Shown here: one piece after another, positions 4,830 to 38,065 of the stretch
Numbering within the stretch: position 1 is the stretch's first letter
Layout: each line of letters starts with the position of its first letter
Assembly: GCF_000020985.1 (NCBI RefSeq)
Contig: NC_011296.1
Coordinates: forward strand, 1,292,001-1,356,000
DNA: 64,000 nt
Direction: 5' to 3'
Source: Thermodesulfovibrio yellowstonii DSM 11347
GTDB taxonomy: Bacteria; Nitrospirota; Thermodesulfovibrionia; Thermodesulfovibrionales; Thermodesulfovibrionaceae
Position numbers and translations under genes: made by a program
Notes under the pieces: generated by a model
The model's database searches: none
Seen by the model: only the letters and a program-made list of their open reading frames with translations
What the model was told of the DNA's origin: nothing

Positions 4830-5642
4830 TTAAAATGGTGGATGTTTTGTAGTTTTATTAATTTTCCCATCAAAATGACAAGTTCCACATTCCATATTCC
4901 CTTTTGTATTATTGAGAGCATCCTTTTTATCATGACAGTCCATACATGTTTTAGTTTTTGCCTTAATAGGATAAGCTCCTTTAAAACTTCCCTTATATTC
5001 AGCTTCTAATAACTTAAGAGCATAAAGAACACAATCAGCGGTAATTCTTGCACATCTCTCATCTCGTTCCTTTGAAGCAGCTTTAAATTTAGTTACTGCA
5101 CACCATTTTGAAACAGAGATATGACAAATTGGTGAATTGGCAACAGTAGCTTTCATCTGCATGTTTAATTTTGGTTTTTCAGGAATATACTTAGGGAGTG
5201 CTTCTTGTTCATAGAAACGAAACACATCCTGTATAATTTTATAGGCTCTATCCTGCTTTTCTTTGTCTACACCACCTGTAAGAAGAAAAATAGCACCAGC
5301 AACTCCTATTAGAGCTCCACAAGTAGAACCAGTTTCAGCTATCCCGCTTCTACCAAAAACAAAAAGTTCTGTTGGGATTCCAGTAAAAGGAAATCCAACT
5401 TCATCTTGAAGAGTTCCTATAATGGCATCAAATGCTCCGTAACAGCACCTACCTTTGTAAAAACCAAAGTAAGCTCTTTCAGCAGCTTTTTTAGGATCAA
5501 TAGATTTGTAAGTCCATGGAAGTTGAGGAAGCTTATTGGGCTGAGAAGCATTTAAGTTATCAGCTATCCAGCTACTGCTCGTCAAAAGTAAACCTCCACC
5601 TAAGATTCCTCCAAAAATTTTTAATGCATCTCTTCTTTTCAC
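4830..5642 (-). CDS. Split-Soret cytochrome c family protein
   Basis: Exported cytochrome of 270 residues resembling the split-Soret cytochrome c of Desulfovibrio. The N-terminus MKRRDALKIFGG followed by a Gly/Leu stretch has a twin-arginine pair, suggesting Tat export. The C-terminal region carries two c-haem motifs, CMDCH and CGTCH. The middle has conserved cysteine patches (GRCCYGAFD, GSTCGALIG, SPICHISVSKWC) that characterise the C_GCAxxG_C_C family. The physiological partner is unknown. The gene is monocistronic, with its own terminator and a 300-nt upstream region. Confidence 0.82.
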   Translation of the reverse strand: MKRRDALKIFGGILGGGLLLTSSSWIADNLNASQPNKLPQLPWTYKSIDPKKAAERAYFGFYKGRCCYGAFDAIIGTLQDEVGFPFTGIPTELFVFGRSGIAETGSTCGALIGVAGAIFLLTGGVDKEKQDRAYKIIQDVFRFYEQEALPKYIPEKPKLNMQMKATVANSPICHISVSKWCAVTKFKAASKERDERCARITADCVLYALKLLEAEYKGSFKGAYPIKAKTKTCMDCHDKKDALNNTKGNMECGTCHFDGKINKTTKHPPF

Positions 5643-7387: not shown

Positions 7388-10060
7388 TTAACCTCCTATT
7401 TTCTTCAAACTATTTTTAAGTTCTGTTATAAGTTCTTCTTCTGAAAAGAGAGCCTTGTTTATTATATCTTTTATTCTACCATTTAATGCTTCCTTTTCTT
7501 GCTCACTCAATTCTTTATTTGTAAGAGCAATAATTGGAATATCCCTTAATTCAGCAGATGTTTTAATAAAATCTATAAAATCAAAAGCGCTGCTGTCTGG
7601 GTCTGTAATATTAACAATTAGCAAATCTGGTTTTTCACTCTTGACCAATTCCATTGCCTGTTTACTACTATTAGTTGCATAAACTTCGTAACCGCTTTCT
7701 TTAAGTATTTTTGAAATATCATAATTAGTTCTTTCATCTCTTTCAAGCAAAAACACTTTTTTTATTGGACGATGAATGCCTATATTTTTAATTCTTCTTA
7801 ATAAAGAATATCCATCAAGCGGCTTTACAAAATAGTCAGCTGCACCAAGACTAAAAGCTAAAGTCTTATTTTCAATAATAGAAACAATAATAACAGGAAT
7901 ATTCTTGGTTTCTTCATCTTCTTTAAGCTCTTTTAATACCTGCCAACCATCTTTCTTAGGCATCATTATATCAAGTGTTATTGCAACCGGTTTTATTTCC
8001 TTAGCTTTTTTAACAGCCTCCTCACTGCTAAGTATTCCTATAACCTTGTAATCTTTTTCAAGATATTTTTTTATTAAATCAATAGCATCAGGATTATCAT
8101 CAATTGCTAAAACAACTTTCTCCTTTTCAGAAATCTTTGATATATCTGGAGATAAAGGTTCTTTATGTAAAACAAGGTCTCTTACAACTTCGCATAGTTT
8201 ACATGCATCTGCTTTTTCTGGATAAGACCCTATTTTCATGCCTTTACAATGTGTTCCTACAACAAGCCAGCATCTTTTCTCTGGAGAACCATACTCAGGG
8301 CAGTTTACATGACCACACTGAGTATAATCCCAGCATCTTACCAATTTACCTTCATAAGATGGGTCTTGTAAAAAAACTTCCTTCGGTACTTCAAAATATT
8401 CTCCAAGTGCTTCAGCCATCTCTTCTTCTATAACAGGACCTGTCTGCTCAAAAACTTCCTTTTTAAAAGGTAACAAAACATAGAAAGTGCTTCCTTTTCC
8501 TACCTCACTTTCAGCCCATACCATGCCTTTGTGTAAAGCTACAAGCCCTCTTACAATGCTTAAACCAAGACCTGTTCCTTCATACTGTCTTGTGGTAGAT
8601 ACATCAGCTTGGGCAAATTTATCAAAAATCTTATCAAGGTCTTCCCTCTTTATTCCTATTCCAGTATCACTTACTGAAATTTCTATAAATTGAGGACTTC
8701 CGTCTTTGGCTTTACCTCTTTCTGAAACTTTTGCCTTTATTGTTATTCCACCCTGATGTGTAAATTTTACAGCATTGGATATTAAATTTATTAAAATCTG
8801 TTTTGTTTTATCCTCATCAACATAAAGCTTTTCAGCTCCTGACTCAATATTTAGAGTAAAACTTAAACCCTTTTTAGCAATTAATGGTTCAAATGTAACC
8901 ATTATTCCGTCTATTAGTTCTTTTAAATCTATTTCTCTTGGATGAAGTTCAATCTTTCCTGATTCAATCTTAGATATATCAAGAACATCATTTATTAATT
9001 GCAATAGATGCCTTGCATTTGCAGCCACTTTTTTTAATGAAGTCTTCTGGTCATCATTTAAAGGACCATCAACTTCATCAAGTAATAAATCAGTATAACC
9101 AATTATTGCATTCATTGGTGTTCTTAGTTCGTGAGACATATTTGCTATAAATGCAGATTTAAGCGTATCAAGTTCTTTTAACTGTTTATTTGCCTTCTGA
9201 AGCAATGCCACAAGCTCGTCTCTTTCTTCAAGAAGTTTTGCTCTACGAGTAAGTTCTTTTTCAAGTTCCATTTTTGACTTAGCAACTTCATTAACCATGT
9301 AGTTAAATGTTTCTGTAAGGGTGCCTATCTCATCAGGAGGATATTTTATTATTGTACTCATCTCGCCTTTTGCAAATCTATGTGTAGCATCAACAAGATT
9401 ACTTAGAGGTTTTCTTATGAATTTGCTTACAACAAGATTTGTTATAAAAATTGCGAGTAATGAAGCAAAAGCTGTCAAAGCAAGGGACCTATTTCTTTGA
9501 GCAATCACTGTTTTATAAACGTCCTCAACATCTGTTTTCATAATCAAAGCACCAAGAATTTTTCTTGATGAACCATGACAATGAAAACACTCAGGTGCAT
9601 TTTTTATAGGAAGAACTGAGATAAGATTTCGCCTTTCTTTAATATTAAAAACTAATGATTTATACTCATCTCCATTCCCCTTAAAGCTTTCATTAAGATT
9701 ATCAATAAAATCTTTATTATTTATTATCTGGTCTATCTTTGTATTTATCACTTTTTTATCTGTAGAAAAAGAGATATCTCTATTGAAATCGCAGAGATAA
9801 ACACTTATATTTTTATATTTCTGCCCAATTTCGTCTAAATCTCTATGAATTGTATCACTATCTCCAACTGTCAAAGGATGTTTCATTGTTGCATAGATAG
9901 TATCCATTACCTCTTTGTTGCCCATTTCTGCAATTCTAAGTCTGTCCTGCACTCCAAAATAAATTCTAAATGTCATTTCAATAATCATCACAACCAAAAT
10001 AATTCCAATAAATGTAAGCATCAACTTGTTTCCAATTTTATTGGTTATGAATTTAAACAT
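7388..10060 (-). CDS. Membrane hybrid sensor kinase with periplasmic haem c site, two-CW domain and two receivers
   Basis: 890-residue sensor. In order: transmembrane helix (about 12-32); periplasmic domain ending in one c-type haem motif, C158-F-H-C161-H162; second helix (about 192-213); HAMP (215-265) and coiled coil; HisKA with H310 (NMSHELRTP); HATPase with NLISNAVKF, DTGIGI and GTGLGLSIV; a cysteine-rich two-CW-type domain (576-625, CWDYTQCGHVNC then CW..GTHC and CKLC); receiver 1 with acceptor D697; receiver 2 whose acceptor position is N817. The haem site implies redox or small-ligand sensing. The start ATG overlaps the stop of the tetraheme cytochrome gene (TAATG), with GGAGG upstream. 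Confidence 0.88.
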   Translation of the reverse strand: MFKFITNKIGNKLMLTFIGIILVVMIIEMTFRIYFGVQDRLRIAEMGNKEVMDTIYATMKHPLTVGDSDTIHRDLDEIGQKYKNISVYLCDFNRDISFSTDKKVINTKIDQIINNKDFIDNLNESFKGNGDEYKSLVFNIKERRNLISVLPIKNAPECFHCHGSSRKILGALIMKTDVEDVYKTVIAQRNRSLALTAFASLLAIFITNLVVSKFIRKPLSNLVDATHRFAKGEMSTIIKYPPDEIGTLTETFNYMVNEVAKSKMELEKELTRRAKLLEERDELVALLQKANKQLKELDTLKSAFIANMSHELRTPMNAIIGYTDLLLDEVDGPLNDDQKTSLKKVAANARHLLQLINDVLDISKIESGKIELHPREIDLKELIDGIMVTFEPLIAKKGLSFTLNIESGAEKLYVDEDKTKQILINLISNAVKFTHQGGITIKAKVSERGKAKDGSPQFIEISVSDTGIGIKREDLDKIFDKFAQADVSTTRQYEGTGLGLSIVRGLVALHKGMVWAESEVGKGSTFYVLLPFKKEVFEQTGPVIEEEMAEALGEYFEVPKEVFLQDPSYEGKLVRCWDYTQCGHVNCPEYGSPEKRCWLVVGTHCKGMKIGSYPEKADACKLCEVVRDLVLHKEPLSPDISKISEKEKVVLAIDDNPDAIDLIKKYLEKDYKVIGILSSEEAVKKAKEIKPVAITLDIMMPKKDGWQVLKELKEDEETKNIPVIIVSIIENKTLAFSLGAADYFVKPLDGYSLLRRIKNIGIHRPIKKVFLLERDERTNYDISKILKESGYEVYATNSSKQAMELVKSEKPDLLIVNITDPDSSAFDFIDFIKTSAELRDIPIIALTNKELSEQEKEALNGRIKDIINKALFSEEELITELKNSLKKIGG

Positions 10061-10497
10061 TAATGAGCACCTCCGTAAAGCAGAGGTTTAAATCTGAATG
10101 CTTTTATTCTTTCTTCTGTATGACATGGTTCACACACTTGAAGTGTGAATTTTCTTTTGATATATTTTTTGTCTATGGTTTCTACATGTTTTTTCCCGGG
10201 ACCATGGCAAACTTCGCATCCTGTATTTTTCAAATATGGTGTTTTTTCTATAGAAACAAAACCACCTGCTTTACCATACCCTGTTGTATGGCAGTAGTAA
10301 CAGCTTTTTAATTCCTCGGGAGTTATTTTATTTTTCATCTTTTCCACTGCTTCAAAAGAGCGAGACATTCTTGAATATTTAATAAAATTCTCATATTGTT
10401 TAGGATGGCATTTTTTACAGGTTTCTGTTCCGACATATTCAGAAAAAACTACGAAAGGATAAAATAATATCAGGAGAATTATAAAAAAAGATTTCAT
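10060..10497 (-). CDS. Periplasmic tetraheme cytochrome c
   Basis: 145-residue exported cytochrome. A signal peptide (MKSFFIILLILFYPFVVFS) precedes four c-haem motifs: CKKCH (27-31), CYYCH (66-70), CEVCH (94-98) and CEPCH (122-126). Motif spacing and GTETCKKCHPKQYENF resemble the cytochrome c554/NrfA-partner style domain. It is translationally coupled to the haem-bearing sensor kinase, so it may pass electrons to, or share a ligand with, that sensor rather than serve bulk respiration. That role is inference from gene order. Confidence 0.85.
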   Translation of the reverse strand: MKSFFIILLILFYPFVVFSEYVGTETCKKCHPKQYENFIKYSRMSRSFEAVEKMKNKITPEELKSCYYCHTTGYGKAGGFVSIEKTPYLKNTGCEVCHGPGKKHVETIDKKYIKRKFTLQVCEPCHTEERIKAFRFKPLLYGGAH

Positions 10498-12967: not shown

Positions 12968-13085
12968 GGGGTTATGATGATGTGGATAGAGACAGTTTTT
13001 TATAAAAAAGTTTATGAAAGTGCTATTTTAAAAATTAAACTATTTTTACATCTATCTCAAAAATCTACAACATCATCATAACCCC
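12968..13085. repeat. 118-bp element with perfect 16-bp inverted ends
   Basis: GGGGTTATGATGATGT (12968-12983) is repeated inverted as ACATCATCATAACCCC (13070-13085). Just inside, GATAGA and TCTATC can pair as well, and the interior is AT-rich. The element sits exactly between the 6S RNA closing stem and rny. It could be a non-autonomous (MITE-like) insertion, although I see no target duplication, or a large RNA hairpin separating 6S RNA from rny mRNA. Confidence 0.6.
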
Positions 13086-13258
13086 GCCCTGCCGTGTGAT
13101 AAGGAAAGTTAGATCCCCCTCGGACAGGTGGGTGCCTTGTAGGCAGGTTAGGCTTCCTCCGAAGAGGCATGCACACCGCTACCTACGCTGGCTCCCTAAC
13201 GGACCTAACTGCCGGATCCCCTTTCCCTTCCATCACGGACAGGGCAGGAAGCCTGTCT
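13086..13258 (-). ncRNA. ssrS: 6S RNA
   Basis: About 170 nt on the minus strand, upstream of rny. The 5' and 3' ends form a long closing stem (13086-13104 with 13226-13245; GCCCTG..CCGTGATGG against CCTTATCACACGGCAGGGC). The centre holds the 6S hallmark GTGCATGCCTC-TTCG-GAGG followed by AAGCCTAACC, as in the E. coli GAGCAUGCUC/GAGAAGCCU region. 6S RNA mimics an open promoter and binds sigma-70 RNA polymerase. Ends are approximate. Confidence 0.85.
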
Positions 13259-31635: not shown

Positions 31636-33105
31636 TTAGGATAATTCGTAGTTTCTGAGGCTTTTTACAAGTTCGCCATGATGGTCTATTATATCAATCC
31701 TCACAGGAATTCTTCCAGGTAATGTATGAGTTGAACATGCAAAGCATAGGTCATATGGACGATAGGCAATTTCAACAAGATTAAGAATTCCCTCATCCAC
31801 CTTTCCATTCTTAATGAAACTCTGTGCTGCTCTCTTTACTGCTATGTTCATTGGACCTTTATTGTGAGTTGTTGCAACAATGAGATTAGCATCTGTAACA
31901 ATACCTTTATCATCGGTTTTATAATGATGAATCAGTACACCTCTCGCAGCTTCAACAATTCCTACACCTTCACCAACTGGAGTGCCAAGTTCCTGACGAA
32001 CGTTAGGGTCTGTAATGCTTTCATCGGAAGCAATCTTCTTAACTGTTTCTGCAGCATGCATTAACTCTATTGCTCTTGTCCAATGATATGCCAATGTGTG
32101 GTGAACTGGTTTTCCACCAAAAGCTGCAAGCATCTTTTCATAGGCTTCCTGTGCAAGGGGTGTATCAAATCCGCTTCCCACATTAAATCTTGCAAGTGGT
32201 CCTACGCTATAAATGCTTGTGCCATCACCATCAACAAGACCATTCCAACCAAGCTTCTTTAAATAGGGTGCTTTCTGATAGCTCCATGGTAATGTTCTTT
32301 CAGCAATATAATCTAAATACTGGATTCCCTTGAATCTGCCTAATTCATTTCCTTTTGTATCAACAATTTTCTGTGTTCCATCGTAATATGTAACCTTATC
32401 ATTCTCATCAACTGTTCCTATATAATTTGTTACTACTTTGTATACATCTCCAGTTACAAGAGCCATGTATTCTTTGTTCTGTAATACAACTTTATCAAAA
32501 ACATCTAAGGTTAATTTTGCAAGCTCTATGCAGTCATCAGCACAGGCAAGAATTTCTTTTCTTTCTTCCTCTGTAATTCTCTTTGACCATCCACCTGGCA
32601 ATGCAGCAACTGGATGACTTGGCCTCCCAGAGGTTAGTTCAAAAATTTTAACTGCTGAATATCTTTTCTTTAGGACAAGCTTTCCAACATCTGCTCCGAC
32701 TTTAAGAACAAGACCTACGAGATTTCTCTCAGCAGGTGATGCAGTGGGACCACATACAAAATCTGGAAAACCAAGTGCATAAAGAATACCTGTATGGTCT
32801 TCTACATAATGAGCATTATAGAAAAGTTCTCTAATTTTCTTAGCTGTTGGTGTGGGTTCTACACCGTAAACTGCATCGGCAGCCTTCACTGAGGCTGTAT
32901 AATGCACACCCCTTCAAACTCCGCATATGGTGCTTACAGTTCGGGGAACCTCTTCAATAGGCATTCCTATCAGAAACTTTTCATAACCCATGAATTCAAC
33001 AACCTGCATAAATGCATTATCAACATTTCCCTGTTCATCAAGGAAGATTGTTATTTTTCCATGGCCCTCAAGCCTTGTCATCGGATTAATCTCAATTTTC
33101 TTCAT
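31636..33105 (-). CDS. mvhA: MvhA-type NiFe hydrogenase large subunit with in-frame TGA (Sec64)
   Basis: Catalytic subunit of the F420-non-reducing hydrogenase that feeds HdrABC with electrons from H2. Read through TGA at 32916-32914, the 489-residue protein is continuous and family-like on both sides: INPMTRLEGHGK at the start, ICGV-U-RGVHYTAS at 60-72, YDLCFACSTH at the end. The N-terminal nickel motif is thus C61-G-V-U64-R-G-V-H68; C-terminal C454 and C457 are both cysteine. Start MKKIEINPMT is preferred to an ATG 51 nt upstream because GGGGGGAAAGGG precedes it and the family begins there. A SECIS-like hairpin follows the TGA. A nonsense mutation is the alternative, but location, hairpin and the parallel case in hdrA argue for selenocysteine. 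Confidence 0.88.
32872..32906 (-). promoter_or_regulatory. Putative bacterial SECIS hairpin in mvhA
   Basis: On the minus strand TGCAT (32906-32902) pairs with ATGCA (32876-32872), and CAGCCT pairs with AGGCTG above a small internal loop. The apical loop CAGTGA begins 22 nt after the TGA. A further C-G pair would leave an AGT loop with G in second position, matching the bacterial SECIS rule as I recall it. Confidence 0.65.
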
Positions 33106-33159
33106 TCCCTTTCCCCCCTTCTGGGTTATTTTTTTTATTATATCTATCAAACTCATTTT

Positions 33160-34116
33160 TTAGCCCTTTAATCTTTTATAAGGAAAAGAACTTGGCAGCG
33201 TGTATCTGTAAAAGAGATGAACCGGGTCAGGAATCTGGTCAACAAGTTCTTCATTATCAAGCATACTTGCAATAGCACTGATTGCACGTAAGCTATAATC
33301 TTTAACTCCAGGAATTGGTCCACCACAACCTCTACAAGGTATGTTTGCTGCTGGGCATTTAGCTCCACAGTCTCCCTGTGTTACAGGACCTAAACAGAGA
33401 TATCCCTCCTCAAGAAGGCAACCATCTTCACTTGGTGCGCCATCAATTGTTCTTTTCACTTCAGTTGCCAGTTTCTTTGGTTTACCTTTCAATACAGGGT
33501 TTCTATCACAGACTTCGCATACAGCTTTACCCATTGTAATCCATGAACCAGGAGGAGGAAGCTGTCCAGAAAGTAATGCTGTGAATGCTGCTTTTACGTG
33601 TTCATAATGAGGTGGACAGCCGCCAATATAGTAGTCAACCTTGACTACTTCATCAAGAGGTCTTGCATACATCAAAGTTGGAAGAGTTAACTCATACTTC
33701 CCGTCTACAACACAGGTTGTTTGAGGTAATTCCTTGTTAGGATTGTCAGTGCTGAATGTATTCACATAAGCCTTGTCAAGAAGTTCATCTGTTGTATGCA
33801 AGTTAACAAGTCCTTTTATACCACCACATGCAGCGCAGATTCCAAAAGCTATTAAAACTTTACATTTATTTCTCAAAACCTTTGCAATGTGCTCATGCTC
33901 TGAGTTTCTAACATTTCCTGTAAAAAGTCCTACATCAATTGAGCCATCTGGCATGGCTTCTAAGTCTTTATATTTAACATCCGCCACTGTCGGTGCCCAA
34001 AATACGATATCTACGGCAAGGGCAACATCTACCAGCATTTCTGATATATCTACTACTGCTATATCACAGCCTCCGCAGCCGCCGGCTAAATAATATGCAA
34101 GCTTAGGTTTGCTCAT
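33160..34116 (-). CDS. mvhG: F420-non-reducing hydrogenase small subunit MvhG
   Basis: 318-residue NiFe hydrogenase small subunit with three predicted [4Fe-4S] clusters relaying electrons from MvhA to MvhD. The proximal-cluster motif is C14-G-G-C17, followed by GICAACGGI and GGCPPHYEHV. The C-terminal cysteine-rich GDCGAKCPAANIPCRGCGGP supplies the medial and distal clusters. No Tat signal is present, so the enzyme is cytosolic. It overlaps mvhD by 4 nt. Confidence 0.94.
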   Translation of the reverse strand: MSKPKLAYYLAGGCGGCDIAVVDISEMLVDVALAVDIVFWAPTVADVKYKDLEAMPDGSIDVGLFTGNVRNSEHEHIAKVLRNKCKVLIAFGICAACGGIKGLVNLHTTDELLDKAYVNTFSTDNPNKELPQTTCVVDGKYELTLPTLMYARPLDEVVKVDYYIGGCPPHYEHVKAAFTALLSGQLPPPGSWITMGKAVCEVCDRNPVLKGKPKKLATEVKRTIDGAPSEDGCLLEEGYLCLGPVTQGDCGAKCPAANIPCRGCGGPIPGVKDYSLRAISAIASMLDNEELVDQIPDPVHLFYRYTLPSSFPYKRLKG

Positions 34117-34529
34117 TGTGCCCCTCCTTTCATTGGATTTGGTCCAAGTTCTCTAATTCTGGCATCAAAAGCGGTCATAGACTCAGCAAACTTTTTACCT
34201 TCACTTCCAGAAATCCATTCAAGCTGAACTCTATCTGGCTCAACTCCCAGGTCAGTAAGAACTCTTTTTAGAAGTTTAAATCTTCTTATTGCCTTGTAAT
34301 TACCTTCTTTATAGTGACAATCACCAAAGTGGCATCCACCAACAAATACTCCATCAGCTCCTCTTTTAAGGGCTTCTGCAATAAATTCAGGTTCAACTCT
34401 TCCGCTACAGGGCACTCTCACTATATGCACCGTGGGCGGATAGGAATAACGCAAGCTTCCTGCCAGGTCTGCTCCTGCATAAGTACACCAATGGCAGGCA
34501 ATAACAATGAGTCTTGGCTCCCATGCCAT
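34113..34529 (-). CDS. mvhD: MvhD, [2Fe-2S] linker between hydrogenase and Hdr
   Basis: 138-residue protein that carries electrons from MvhAG to HdrA. Cysteines C12, C15, C41, C66 and C71 (CHWC, PCSGR, GGCHFGDCHY) match the MvhD/FrhD cluster-binding pattern. It lies 1 nt after hdrB and overlaps mvhG by 4 nt. No TGA interrupts it, unlike the selenocysteine forms known in some methanogens. Confidence 0.94.
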   Translation of the reverse strand: MAWEPRLIVIACHWCTYAGADLAGSLRYSYPPTVHIVRVPCSGRVEPEFIAEALKRGADGVFVGGCHFGDCHYKEGNYKAIRRFKLLKRVLTDLGVEPDRVQLEWISGSEGKKFAESMTAFDARIRELGPNPMKGGAQ

Positions 34530-34530
34530 A

Positions 34531-35427
34531 TTAATTCCCTCCTTTTATCTTAGTTATTACTCCATTCAATGGAATTGATGCCATTGCTGTGGCTTTTTCC
34601 ACATCTGCACCTAAAGCAATTGCTGTAATTTGAGCAAGATGAAGAGCAGGAATCTTATAATTTAATTTCTTCTGCTCAACTAAAAGTGCCTGTCCTGCAT
34701 CAAACTGAAGAAGACAGGAACTACAGCCAATTACTGTAACATCTGGGTCTATTTCTTCTTTTATTACATCAAGTTTCTTTTTAAACAAAGCAAGAGATTT
34801 TTCAGATGCTGTTGACCTTAATGCACCCATTCCACAGCAATCTGTTATGGTGCTATAATGAGGTGCAACCCCGCCCATGGCTTCACATAGTTGTCTTAGT
34901 CTTGTTGGGAAAAAGGTGTTATCTTCATTAGTTGGATATGCTCTGCTTGGCCAAAGATTGTGACATCCTGTCTGTACAGCACATTTTAATCCATTGAGAT
35001 TATATTTTATCTTAGACTTAAGATTATCAGGTCCTACATCTTCATAAAGTAAATTAATAAAATTCCATACTTTTGTTGTACCCTTATATTCTTTGCCTAC
35101 TTTGGCAAGAATTTTATTAACCTGTTCCTTTATTTCTGGATGTTTTTCCATATGATATCTTGCTTCATTTAGGGAACCGTAACAGGAACCACAACCTGTA
35201 ACTATGTCAACCCCTTTTTCCTCTGCAATGGTCAGATTCCATGCTGATGCCGCTGCCCAGCCTACTAAATCAAGTGATGGCATTGTTCCAAAAGCAGGAC
35301 AGCAGGTAGCTCCTTCAAGCTCTACTATTTCATATCCGAGCTCATTGAGAAGAAATCTTGCAGAGTATTCTACATCTGGTCTATTAAAAGGTATATTACA
35401 TCCAAGAAAAAATCCTATCTTTTTCAT
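34531..35427 (-). CDS. hdrB: Heterodisulfide reductase-like subunit HdrB
   Basis: 298-residue subunit with two complete CCG domains that each bind a noncubane [4Fe-4S] cluster. The first has C10, C42-C43, C79 and C82; the second has C155, C197-C198, C235 and C238. In methanogens this is the site of CoM-S-S-CoB reduction. Bacteria lack that substrate, so a different disulfide or low-potential acceptor is expected. DsrC-like persulfide carriers are a common suggestion in sulfate reducers, but nothing in the window identifies the acceptor. Confidence 0.93.
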   Translation of the reverse strand: MKKIGFFLGCNIPFNRPDVEYSARFLLNELGYEIVELEGATCCPAFGTMPSLDLVGWAAASAWNLTIAEEKGVDIVTGCGSCYGSLNEARYHMEKHPEIKEQVNKILAKVGKEYKGTTKVWNFINLLYEDVGPDNLKSKIKYNLNGLKCAVQTGCHNLWPSRAYPTNEDNTFFPTRLRQLCEAMGGVAPHYSTITDCCGMGALRSTASEKSLALFKKKLDVIKEEIDPDVTVIGCSSCLLQFDAGQALLVEQKKLNYKIPALHLAQITAIALGADVEKATAMASIPLNGVITKIKGGN

Positions 35428-35438
35428 TCTTATCCTCC

Positions 35439-35975
35439 TTAGTCAAGCGGAAATGGTGCTATTTCTTCCAGGATTGTATTTCTAAGTACTTCCTGGAACT
35501 TTTTTCTTAACTCTTCATTACTAATAGCTGTTGGTGGTTTCTCTGGCAAACCCGCTTTCTTTCTTCTTTCCTCATATCCTTTTGGATACACTGCATGTCC
35601 AAATCTATAAAGATTTCTTAAACCTTCATATGTATTTGCTGGACATGATTCAACCTTCACTGCTGCTCTTCTAACTGCTTGAATGACTTCATAGGGTTTT
35701 ATATCCATTGGGCAAACTTCTACACAACGATTGCAAGACTGACATCCCCATACAGATGAGTCTTCAAGAAGAATATCTCTTAAGCCAAGATTGGCTGCAT
35801 GAATTATTCTTTTGATGAAAAATTCTAAACCAGCTAAAGCCATTGGACATGTGGATGCACATTTTCCGCACTGTATGCACTCTCTAAGTTCATCTGCTCC
35901 TAATCCTTCAAGCTCTTTTACAAAACTTTCATCTGCTTGGGTAAGGTCAATTACATTTACGCCACCCTCTTCCAT
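35439..35975 (-). CDS. hdrC: Heterodisulfide reductase-like subunit HdrC
   Basis: 178-residue ferredoxin-like subunit with two [4Fe-4S] motifs: C33, C36, C39, C43 (ECIQCGKCASTCP) and C78, C81, C84, C88 (GCQSCNRCVEVCP). It passes electrons from HdrA to HdrB. No membrane helices are seen, so this is the soluble HdrC type. It lies between hdrA and hdrB with AGGAGG before the ATG. Confidence 0.94.
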   Translation of the reverse strand: MEEGGVNVIDLTQADESFVKELEGLGADELRECIQCGKCASTCPMALAGLEFFIKRIIHAANLGLRDILLEDSSVWGCQSCNRCVEVCPMDIKPYEVIQAVRRAAVKVESCPANTYEGLRNLYRFGHAVYPKGYEERRKKAGLPEKPPTAISNEELRKKFQEVLRNTILEEIAPFPLD

Positions 35976-35994
35976 TTTTTCCTCCTTTTATTTT

Positions 35995-37995
35995 TTATGC
36001 CTCTGTTAATGCATCAATCTGTGCCATTATTTGTTCAGTTGTAAAGCCGTTGAATTTAATAGCTCTTGATGGACATGCACTGGCACAGACTCCACAACCT
36101 GCACAGAGTGCTGGTTCAATATATGCCTTTTCTTTGCCTTTGTATTCTTCAATTCTTATAGCGCTGTATGGACAAAGTGGTACACAAACACCGCAGCTAC
36201 TACATTTATCTCTATCAACCTCAGAAACTATTGCTTCAAATTTAATTTTACCAGGAATTATTAAAGCTGCTGTCGCTGCCGCAGCTGCTCTGGACTGAGC
36301 AATTGATTCAGGAATATCTTTCGGTCCCTGTACACATCCTGCAATAAATACACCCCTTGCTGAAGTCTCAACAGGATAGAGTTTTGTATGGACTTCCCTT
36401 AGGAATCCTTCTCTACCGCAAGTTGCACTGAACATTCTTCCAAGTTCATCAACACCATCAGGAGGTTCAATAGCAGTTGCAAGAACAACTAAATCAGCAT
36501 CAACTTCAACAGGCGAACAAAGATCAACATCAAAGCCTCTTACTCTGAGTTTTCCATTAGGTTTCACATCAACTGCTGATACTCTTCCACCTCTTATAAT
36601 TTTTGCTCCAAGTTCTCTTGTATAAACATAGAACTCTTCAAAATCTTTACCTGCTGTTCTAACATCAATAAAGAAAAGATAAAGTTTTATATCAGGATAC
36701 TTTTCTTTAAGAATTCTTGCGTGTTTAAGCATGTACATACAGCATACTTTTGAACAGTATCTATGATATCTTTCATCTCTACTTCCTACACAGGAGATCA
36801 TTGCAATTGTCTTGGGTTTTGTGCCATCTGATGGTCTCTTTAATTCACCACCTGTTGGTCCTGTTGCAGAGAGTATTCTTTCAAATTCCATAGAGGTTAT
36901 AACATCTGGACAGTGAGGTGAGTATTCTTTAAAGTGAACCTTAGACATTGGCTTGAAGCCTGTAGCAATGATAACTGCTCCAACTTTAAGATTTATATAT
37001 TCATCCTTGTCATCAAATTTTATTGCATCAGCTGGGCATCCCTGTATTCCCTTTGGTGGAATACCTTTTTTACATATTTCACAAGCGGGTTTACCTGTTT
37101 TTTTCATTGATTTGAAGTATAAGCAATTTGGCTCATCTATAACTGCTTTTTTGGGAACAGCCTGAGGATATTCAATATAAGCTGCTCTTCTCTGATTTAA
37201 TCCCATATTATATTCATTCGGGACTCTTGATGGACAAATTTCTGTGCAAACACCGCAACCTATGCATTTATCCCAATCAATATATTTTGCTTTTTTCTTT
37301 ATGCGAATATCAAAATTACCAACATATCCTTTAACATCATCTACTTCTGCATAGGTAATAAGCTCTATATTTGGATGCTGGGCGACCTCGCCCGTCTTAG
37401 GTGTGAGTATTCAAGCCGAACAATCCATCGTAGGGAAGGTTTTATCAATTTTTGACATATTACCGCCAATTGACGGCTGTCTTTCTACAAGATAGACCTT
37501 CAGCCCCATATTCGCAAGGTCAAGGGCTGCGAACATTCCTGCTATTCCACCACCAATGACCAAAACGGATTTTTCCATATCTCCATAGCGATCTTCAAGA
37601 GGCTCATTAAGTCTTACTTTAGCAACAGCGCTTCTTATAAGTCTTTTTGCTTTTTCAAGAGCACCTTCTTTATTATGCCAGTGTGGCCAGCTATCTTGGT
37701 CTCTGATATTAGCCATTTCCAAAAGATAGCCATTAAGTCCTGCGTCTTCAACTGCTTTTTTAAAGATAGGACCGTGTGTTCTTGGTGTACATGCTGCAAC
37801 CACTACACGGTCTACTGCTCCACTTTTAATATCTTGTTTAATTAAATCCTGCCCTGGATCAGAACACATAAAAACATAATTTCTAACTAATGCAACATCT
37901 GGAAGTGTTTCAACATACTTTTTCAGTGCTTCAATGTCAATGGCGCCTTTGATGTTCTCTCCACAGTGGCACAGATAAACCCCTACTTTTGCCAT
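35995..37995 (-). CDS. hdrA: HdrA, flavin-based bifurcating subunit with in-frame TGA (Sec195)
   Basis: Read through TGA at 37413-37411, the gene gives a continuous 666-residue HdrA. In order: N-terminal CHCGENIKG region; FAD site VIGGGIAG (147-154); PTMDCSA-U195-ILTPK; ferredoxin motif C244, C247, C250, C254; then two C-terminal ferredoxin motifs (CSSCGVCVPLCP and CAGCGVCASACP). The TGA occupies a cysteine that is selenocysteine in some methanogen HdrA proteins. Start MAKVGVYLCHCG at 37995 follows GGAGG. A hairpin with an AGGT loop follows the TGA. The FAD bifurcates MvhD electrons to ferredoxin and HdrBC. A split pseudogene is the alternative, but no other lesion is seen. Confidence 0.92.
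37380..37393 (-). promoter_or_regulatory. Putative bacterial SECIS hairpin in hdrA
   Basis: Minus strand GGGCG-AGGT-CGCCC, a perfect 5-bp GC stem. The loop begins 22 nt after the TGA. The AGGT loop matches the AGGTCT loop of the E. coli fdhF SECIS, which SelB recognises. Confidence 0.75.
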
Positions 37996-38036
37996 TTTAA
38001 GCCCTCCTTTGAATGGATTTTTATTGTGGTTTACCC

Positions 38037-38065
38037 TTTTTACCATTTTTTGCAAAATTTGTCAA
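38037..38065 (-). promoter_or_regulatory. Promoter of the hdr-mvh operon
   Basis: Minus strand TTGACA (38065-38060), 17-bp spacer, TAAAAA (38042-38037), about 40 nt before the hdrA ATG. Perfect -35 and ideal spacing; the -10 is weaker. Confidence 0.6.

Follow-up and report, generated by a model that had tools for sequence, protein, structure and literature searches.

A four-haem cytochrome gene accompanies a subfamily of haem-c-type Cache sensors across kinase and chemoreceptor outputs

Sensor proteins of the sCache_heme family, which was named in a 2026 preprint, have a conserved CxxCH motif, and a signalling member of the family binds nitric oxide (NO) (PMC12889525). For GSU0582 and GSU0935 redox-linked haem switching has been published, and in the latter the axial Met60 ligates the reduced haem (PMC8396549). 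Haem-c sensors have so far been known singly, and the input to the haem may be an electron or a gas. Here we analyse a locus of Thermodesulfovibrio yellowstonii DSM 11347 in which the gene for a hybrid histidine kinase with a sensor domain of this kind is preceded by a gene for a small four-haem cytochrome. It lies in a 64,000-nucleotide stretch (contig NC_011296.1, positions 1,292,001 to 1,356,000), which we call the window and to whose first letter our coordinates refer.

The unit is encoded on the minus strand and comprises, in order of transcription, the cytochrome, the hybrid kinase, a stand-alone receiver and a receiver-kinase (Table 1). Reading of the open reading frames (ORFs) bore out what an earlier note on this DNA had described: CFHCH sits in the periplasmic sensor domain of the kinase, the cytochrome has four CxxCH motifs (starting at residues 27, 66, 94 and 122) and overlaps the kinase start by one base in TAATG, and two more signalling genes follow downstream. 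The kinase has the HAMP domain, the HisKA domain with its His, the HATPase_c domain and the receiver with its Asp that are expected of a hybrid histidine kinase. The idea that the two genes are translationally coupled fares less well: the TAATG overlap is a trait mainly of the genus, the cytochrome-sensor spacing beyond it mostly lying between a slight overlap of a few bases and a gap of 216 bp, and the kinase has a GGAGGT of its own.

Conserved adjacency of cytochrome and sensor

In a set of 61 genomes of near relatives, all 19 orthologous cytochromes (13 from the same genus, six from other families) are followed by a sensor gene. Eighteen of these 19 units run cytochrome, hybrid kinase, receiver, receiver-kinase, and in the remaining one (L048) a sensor-HAMP protein with the signalling domain of a methyl-accepting chemotaxis protein (MCP) comes after the cytochrome. 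Since the flanking ymdB and rny genes are found only within the genus, conservation of the unit does not derive from that of its flanks; neighbours outside it vary between families.

The same arrangement was seen on a wider scale when GTDB was scanned with the cytochrome alignment and the best 80 of 354 relatives were kept, a set that includes genomes of the near relatives. These 80 loci come mostly from Nitrospirota and Desulfobacterota, and in 76 of the 76 testable ones the cytochrome gene is directly followed, on its own strand, by that of a haem sensor; the contigs of the other four end less than 380 bp downstream. As an independent sample, not chosen by neighbourhood, we used 297 genomes, spread evenly over the phylum to which one of the hits, a Fundidesulfovibrio genome (G176), belongs. 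Here, too, every main-type cytochrome has a sensor downstream (37/37, 36 by coordinates and L163 on inspection), as do 10 of 12 more divergent stand-alone cytochromes, and a sensor stands beside none of the seven cytochrome domains that are fused in long (about 400 amino acids or more) UshA-like-sized proteins. Distances between sensors correlate with those between cytochromes (r = 0.83), which is partly due to shared ancestry.

The reverse test covered the sensors of the source organism's order in 176 genomes. These fall into two score classes, one of 122-237 bits (n = 49) and one of 69 bits or less, and the cytochrome adjoins 40 of the 49 sensors of the high class, i.e. those of the same subfamily, by coordinates. 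Among the generic sCache_heme sensors of the order that have enough upstream sequence, 0 of 19 have another CxxCH-containing ORF on their strand at a distance of up to 600 bp. Because 40 of 49 same-subfamily sensors are paired and none of the 19 generic ones is, the cytochrome is typical of one sensor subfamily, though not obligatory in it.

Chance, or lineage-wide synteny without a functional reason, could in principle produce adjacency of this kind, and shared ancestry does inflate our counts. The pairing, however, spans two phyla with differing surroundings, persists through swaps of the output domain (see below) and holds for all 37 main-type cytochromes in a sample that was not chosen by neighbourhood. 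The GTDB scan, the independent sample and the generic-sensor control thus refute this explanation in the main, and we consider the chance that it is correct to be negligible.

Next, we turn to the outputs of the paired sensors, which were classified by profile comparison (an earlier sorting by short patterns had left 47 of 109 unclassified). Among 63 paired proteins scanned, 43 have HisKA/HATPase domains and 19 an MCP signalling domain; on the sensor tree, which holds 78 paired sensors, 54 are kinases and 21 chemoreceptors, with at least two switches of output. In one chemoreceptor form (L125) the pair is followed by cheW, cheR, cheD and cheB, and similar layouts occur at other loci, while a receiver and a receiver-kinase lie downstream of many kinase forms in both phyla. 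Since the paired outputs differ in this way, the cytochrome accompanies the sensor domain and not the kinase, which argues against a gene that is merely regulated by the kinase. The cytochrome could nonetheless be a respiratory protein that adjoins the kinase as its target gene, as its first place in the operon and its electron-carrier fold family would allow. Against this, sensors with a chemoreceptor output still have it at their side, the generic sCache_heme sensors lack it, and residue 160 of the sensor varies with it (see below); we regard the target-gene explanation as very improbable.

Taken together, the counts from the testable GTDB loci, the independent sample and the same-subfamily sensors of the order support the view that the cytochrome is a dedicated partner of the haem sensor. 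Homologous kinases do co-occur with the cytochrome, and the earlier note's idea of a dedicated partner is supported; this partner is not confined to kinases, as chemoreceptors bearing the same sensor have it as well. The new part is the pairing, each protein alone coming from a known family. We found no description of the cytochrome-sensor pair as an input module in the searchable literature, outside which most subscription papers lie, so that an earlier report is possible; the words 'operon', 'multiheme' and 'partner' are absent from the sCache_heme preprint (PMC12889525). A tblastn search of plasmids with the whole kinase gave generic kinase matches only.

Two further arrangements were encountered. 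A second, divergent pair type with CxKCH sensors (L164, L165, L167, L168, L073, L094 and L095) groups in a separate clade of the sensor tree, and at L171-L174 sensor genes with the motif CYNCH stand beside cheA, with no cytochrome.

The haem sensor domain, the cytochrome and His160

Cys158, His160, Cys161 and His162 are invariant in 62 of 62 aligned sensors, so the single CxxCH of the sensor is not a chance occurrence. The best PDB sequence matches of the domain are 3b42 (GSU0935) and 3b47, the former with E 0.0013 from the single sequence and E 5.9e-10 from a profile. In an AlphaFold2 model of the domain (predicted local distance difference test, pLDDT, 88.9) the CxxCH lies on a short helix, with strands at residues 113-123 and 138-147 of the model to either side. 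In a Foldseek search with this model 3b42_B ranked second (E 5.4e-7); the model also matches CitA/WalK-like folds (Z 11-14), and the absence of 3b42 from the best 50 matches of VIA-align is no evidence against family membership. The PF21563 score of the sensor is 23.8 bits against a cut-off of 27, with orthologues at 27.6, 30.1 and up to 41.5 bits. By family and by predicted fold, the sensor is a member of the known haem-c Cache family (GSU0935/GSU0582, sCache_heme), which supports the earlier view of it as a haem-c sensor, and it presumably attaches a haem; genes for ResB and a Cytochrom_C_asm protein adjoin each other in the genome. Met60 of GSU0935 aligns with Leu63 of the kinase sensor, and among 62 homologues this column holds Met 48 times and Leu 14 times.

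The cytochrome belongs to the Cytochrome_C554 family (PF13435; Table 1) and scores 39.5 bits with the equivalog NF043010 (cytochrome c-550/c554, Nitrosomonas; cut-off 400), making it a relative of that protein and not the same protein. Its model is of lower confidence (pLDDT 75) and has 1bvb as its best, though weak, fold match (E 0.039); 1bvb also matches the cytochrome profile (E 1.5e-11). The nearest homologues outside sensor loci are the C-terminal tetrahaem domains of UshA-like (seleno)proteins (L022, L023). Outside the four CxxCH motifs the cytochrome has only two His, at positions 104 and 145, and since two conserved His serve four haems, some of the haems probably have other distal ligands or none. 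The His that UshA-like domains carry in the first loop, at position 44, is replaced in the sensor-linked cytochromes by Lys (53/62) or Met (9/62). We also considered whether His145 of the cytochrome reaches into the sensor haem, the last residues of the model having pLDDT below 50. This was rejected: a His occupies the corresponding column in the UshA-like relatives too, although these lack a sensor of this kind, and His145 is more likely an internal ligand of the cytochrome.

This pattern of ligands bears on an explanation in terms of gas or nitrogen-oxide handling, by which the cytochrome would bind, make or remove NO or a related ligand at an incompletely ligated haem and the sensor haem would report that ligand. 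Two conserved His for four distal positions, together with the replacement of the UshA-like His by Lys, Met or Tyr, suggest that at least one cytochrome haem may be open. In the sensor, the exchange of Met for Leu63 hints at a free distal position, and sCache_heme domains fused to signalling parts bind NO tightly (PMC12889525). Slow release of NO from the ferrous haem is the mark of an NO-sensing member of that family. However, Lys or Met at position 44 may itself be a ligand, an open haem is only presumed, and nitrogen-oxide enzymes were not seen in the listed neighbourhoods or the domain searches, where most flanking ORFs are unannotated. We consider this explanation unlikely.

The third residue of the sensor motif, position 160, varies with the presence of the cytochrome. 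It is His in all 79 sensors that adjoin a main-type cytochrome and have the motif, and Lys in all seven sensors with a divergent cytochrome; in 13 of 20 same-subfamily sensors without an adjoining cytochrome it is Arg, Asn, Gly or Gln. On a sensor tree built without residue 160, His was lost three times, each time in a lineage without an adjoining cytochrome. His persists in seven unpaired sensors, five of which are from genomes with a main-type cytochrome elsewhere. The raw Fisher value for the association (1e-11) is inflated by relatedness, and we do not rely on it; the association as read from the alignments is suggestive.

Adjacency and the His160 association are compatible with any contact between the two proteins, including one by which the cytochrome, or its state of haem loading, acts on the sensor through binding, as an inhibitor or an activator, electron transfer being incidental. 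TorC and TorS offer a precedent for such an allosteric reporter, as signalling is blocked by apo-TorC when it attaches to the periplasmic domain of TorS, for which holo-TorC has a similar affinity (PMC11727998). The match of our kinase to TorS, however, begins near the second transmembrane segment (residue 181) and leaves the sensor region unmatched; TorC is a respiratory subunit, while the cytochrome here has no enzyme regularly adjoining; and haem in both partners would make electron exchange the simpler use. A TorC-like role thus seems quite improbable to us.

A proposed route for electrons to the sensor haem

We slightly favour electron exchange between the cytochrome and the sensor haem, with the cytochrome as a dedicated partner in the periplasm through which the sensor would receive redox state. 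Families, sensor fold, adjacency, output swapping and the His160 association were computed; haem attachment, contact, electron transfer and signal direction belong to the model built upon them. Cytochrome and kinase would form one periplasmic sensing unit, in which the kinase would carry a single covalent haem c in its Cache-type domain, and the cytochrome, exchanging electrons with the periplasmic redox pool, would dock on this domain close to His160 and the rest of the haem motif. The oxidation state of the sensor haem would then track the supply of electrons outside the membrane, and altered haem oxidation or ligation would shift the sensor helices, the HAMP domain and the kinase. Phosphate might pass from there to receiver 1, to the separate receiver and the receiver-kinase protein, or to both; elsewhere in bacteria, the same pair would drive chemoreceptors. 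Whether the unit contains a phosphorelay is uncertain, because no Hpt domain matched in its four proteins at E up to 1, as a relay of the TorS/BarA type would have it, and the last receiver of the kinase lacks the Asp, having Asn instead. The multi-step relay proposed earlier thus stands only in so far as the receiver and the receiver-kinase follow in conserved order.

Several points weigh against electron exchange. Nine of the 49 same-subfamily sensors in the order have no adjoining cytochrome. We inspected the unpaired sensors L149-L157 and L170-L179 as counter-cases: most of the subfamily members L149-L157 lie beside panB, with genes for a receiver and a larger kinase-receiver protein downstream, and L152 is an otherwise similar hybrid kinase locus with the motif CYRCH and no cytochrome. 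The unpaired clades on the sensor tree include long branches and their exact placement is unsure. When corrected for the tree, the His160 test has few events, two pairs in the expected direction and none in the other (sign test, p 0.5). With Leu63 at the position of Met60, the published Met on/off switch cannot operate there, which weakens the claim of the exact GSU0935 switch, but not that of haem sensing. A signalling-type sCache_heme protein behaves as a sensor of NO (PMC12889525). Finally, contact and electron transfer are beyond what sequence can show.

More tentatively, and with somewhat less than even confidence, we propose that the pair constitutes a modular two-protein 'electron meter', in which the docked tetrahaem cytochrome sets the oxidation state of the CxHCH haem, so that kinases and chemoreceptors read periplasmic electron flow itself and not a chemical ligand; in Nitrospirota and Desulfobacterota it would represent an input module that is widespread but undescribed. 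More generally, our results suggest that the two proteins act together as a device by which electron flow or small gases are sensed on the outer side of the cell membrane. The organisms concerned, sulfate and metal reducers, live by periplasmic electron flow, and a partner that follows the sensor across outputs and two phyla hints at how electrons could reach it. The question of electron or gas becomes directly testable with two small soluble domains.

Layout of the unit and comparison with known systems

Table 1. Features of the cytochrome-kinase unit, with coordinates in the window
Feature	Coordinates	Strand	Remarks
Four-haem cytochrome gene, 145 amino acids	10060..10497	-	signal-peptide-like N-terminus (~19 residues); Pfam Cytochrome_C554 68.4 bits, cut-off 20.8
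Cytochrome haem motif 1 CKKCH, residues 27-31	10405..10419	-	
Cytochrome haem motif 2 CYYCH, residues 66-70	10288..10302	-	C, C, H invariant 62/62
Cytochrome haem motif 3 CEVCH, residues 94-98	10204..10218	-	C, C, H invariant 62/62
Cytochrome haem motif 4 CEPCH, residues 122-126	10120..10134	-	C, C, H invariant 62/62
Cytochrome His104, candidate distal haem ligand	10186..10188	-	conserved 62/62; putative role
Cytochrome His145, C-terminal residue, candidate distal haem ligand	10063..10065	-	conserved 62/62; putative role
TAATG stop/start overlap, cytochrome/kinase	10058..10062	-	one base shared, context CAT TAATG TTT
GGAGGT, Shine-Dalgarno-like, ahead of kinase	10069..10074	-	
Hybrid histidine kinase with predicted haem-c sensor, 890 amino acids	7388..10060	-	
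Kinase periplasmic sensor domain, ~residues 34-190, Cache/PAS fold, flanked by two hydrophobic segments	9491..9961	-	
Kinase CFHCH haem c motif, residues 158-162	9575..9589	-	
Kinase HAMP, residues 211-258	9287..9430	-	
Kinase HisKA, residues 301-368, His310 within HELRTP	8957..9160	-	
Kinase HATPase_c, residues 415-533	8462..8818	-	
Kinase Cys-rich two-CW-like domain, residues 576-626, cytoplasmic	8183..8335	-	NF045718 29.8 bits, under cut-off 35
Kinase receiver 1, residues 650-757, Asp697 present	7790..8113	-	
Kinase receiver 2-like domain, ~771-885, Asn for phospho-Asp	7406..7750	-	DLLIVNITDPD
Stand-alone receiver, 122 amino acids	7017..7385	-	adjoins kinase in relatives too
Receiver-HisKA-HATPase protein, 356 amino acids	5950..7020	-	kept in relatives

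The two-CW-like stretch of the kinase, which lies between the ATPase domain and receiver 1, could be an intracellular binding site for a metal or an iron-sulphur cluster. Immediately after the signalling genes, on the same strand, 4830-5642 encodes a Split-Soret cytochrome c-like protein (NF047622, E 1.7e-59, under the equivalog cut-off), a position that is occupied by other genes in relatives. Elsewhere in the window, also on the minus strand, a 6S RNA (Rfam RF00013, 71.8 bits, cut-off 46.4) lies at 13077-13253 between rny and a DNA polymerase gene, and 31636-38055 holds Mvh-type NiFe hydrogenase-like genes with heterodisulfide reductase subunits, as judged from ORF translations only.

Several described systems resemble the unit in part. 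Those closest to the cytochrome are the c554 family (1BVB) and the C-terminal cytochrome domain of UshA-like (seleno)proteins (NF041198), and its four haem motifs are laid out as in the UshA-like domain; here the cytochrome is a stand-alone protein of 145 amino acids that adjoins the sensor and has an invariant C-terminal His. DcrA of Desulfovibrio vulgaris is likewise a chemoreceptor with a periplasmic haem c, proposed as a redox and oxygen sensor, and the passage on it in PMC8396549 mentions no cytochrome partner. In Escherichia coli, too, a hybrid kinase, TorS, has a periplasmic domain to which a multihaem cytochrome, TorC, binds (PMC11727998), as we propose for the present pair. TorC belongs to the trimethylamine N-oxide reductase chain and the TorS signal comes via TorT, whereas here no reductase is linked and the sensor itself should carry a haem. 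To our knowledge, TorS carries none. The closest relatives of the sensor are GSU0935 and GSU0582 (3B42, 3B47; sCache_heme, PF21563), which have the same periplasmic Cache-type domain with one CxxCH and two membrane helices, followed by a HAMP domain; the sensor described here differs from GSU0935 and sCache_heme in its additional invariant His (CxHCH), in having Leu63 for the axial Met60, and in the dedicated cytochrome that adjoins it.

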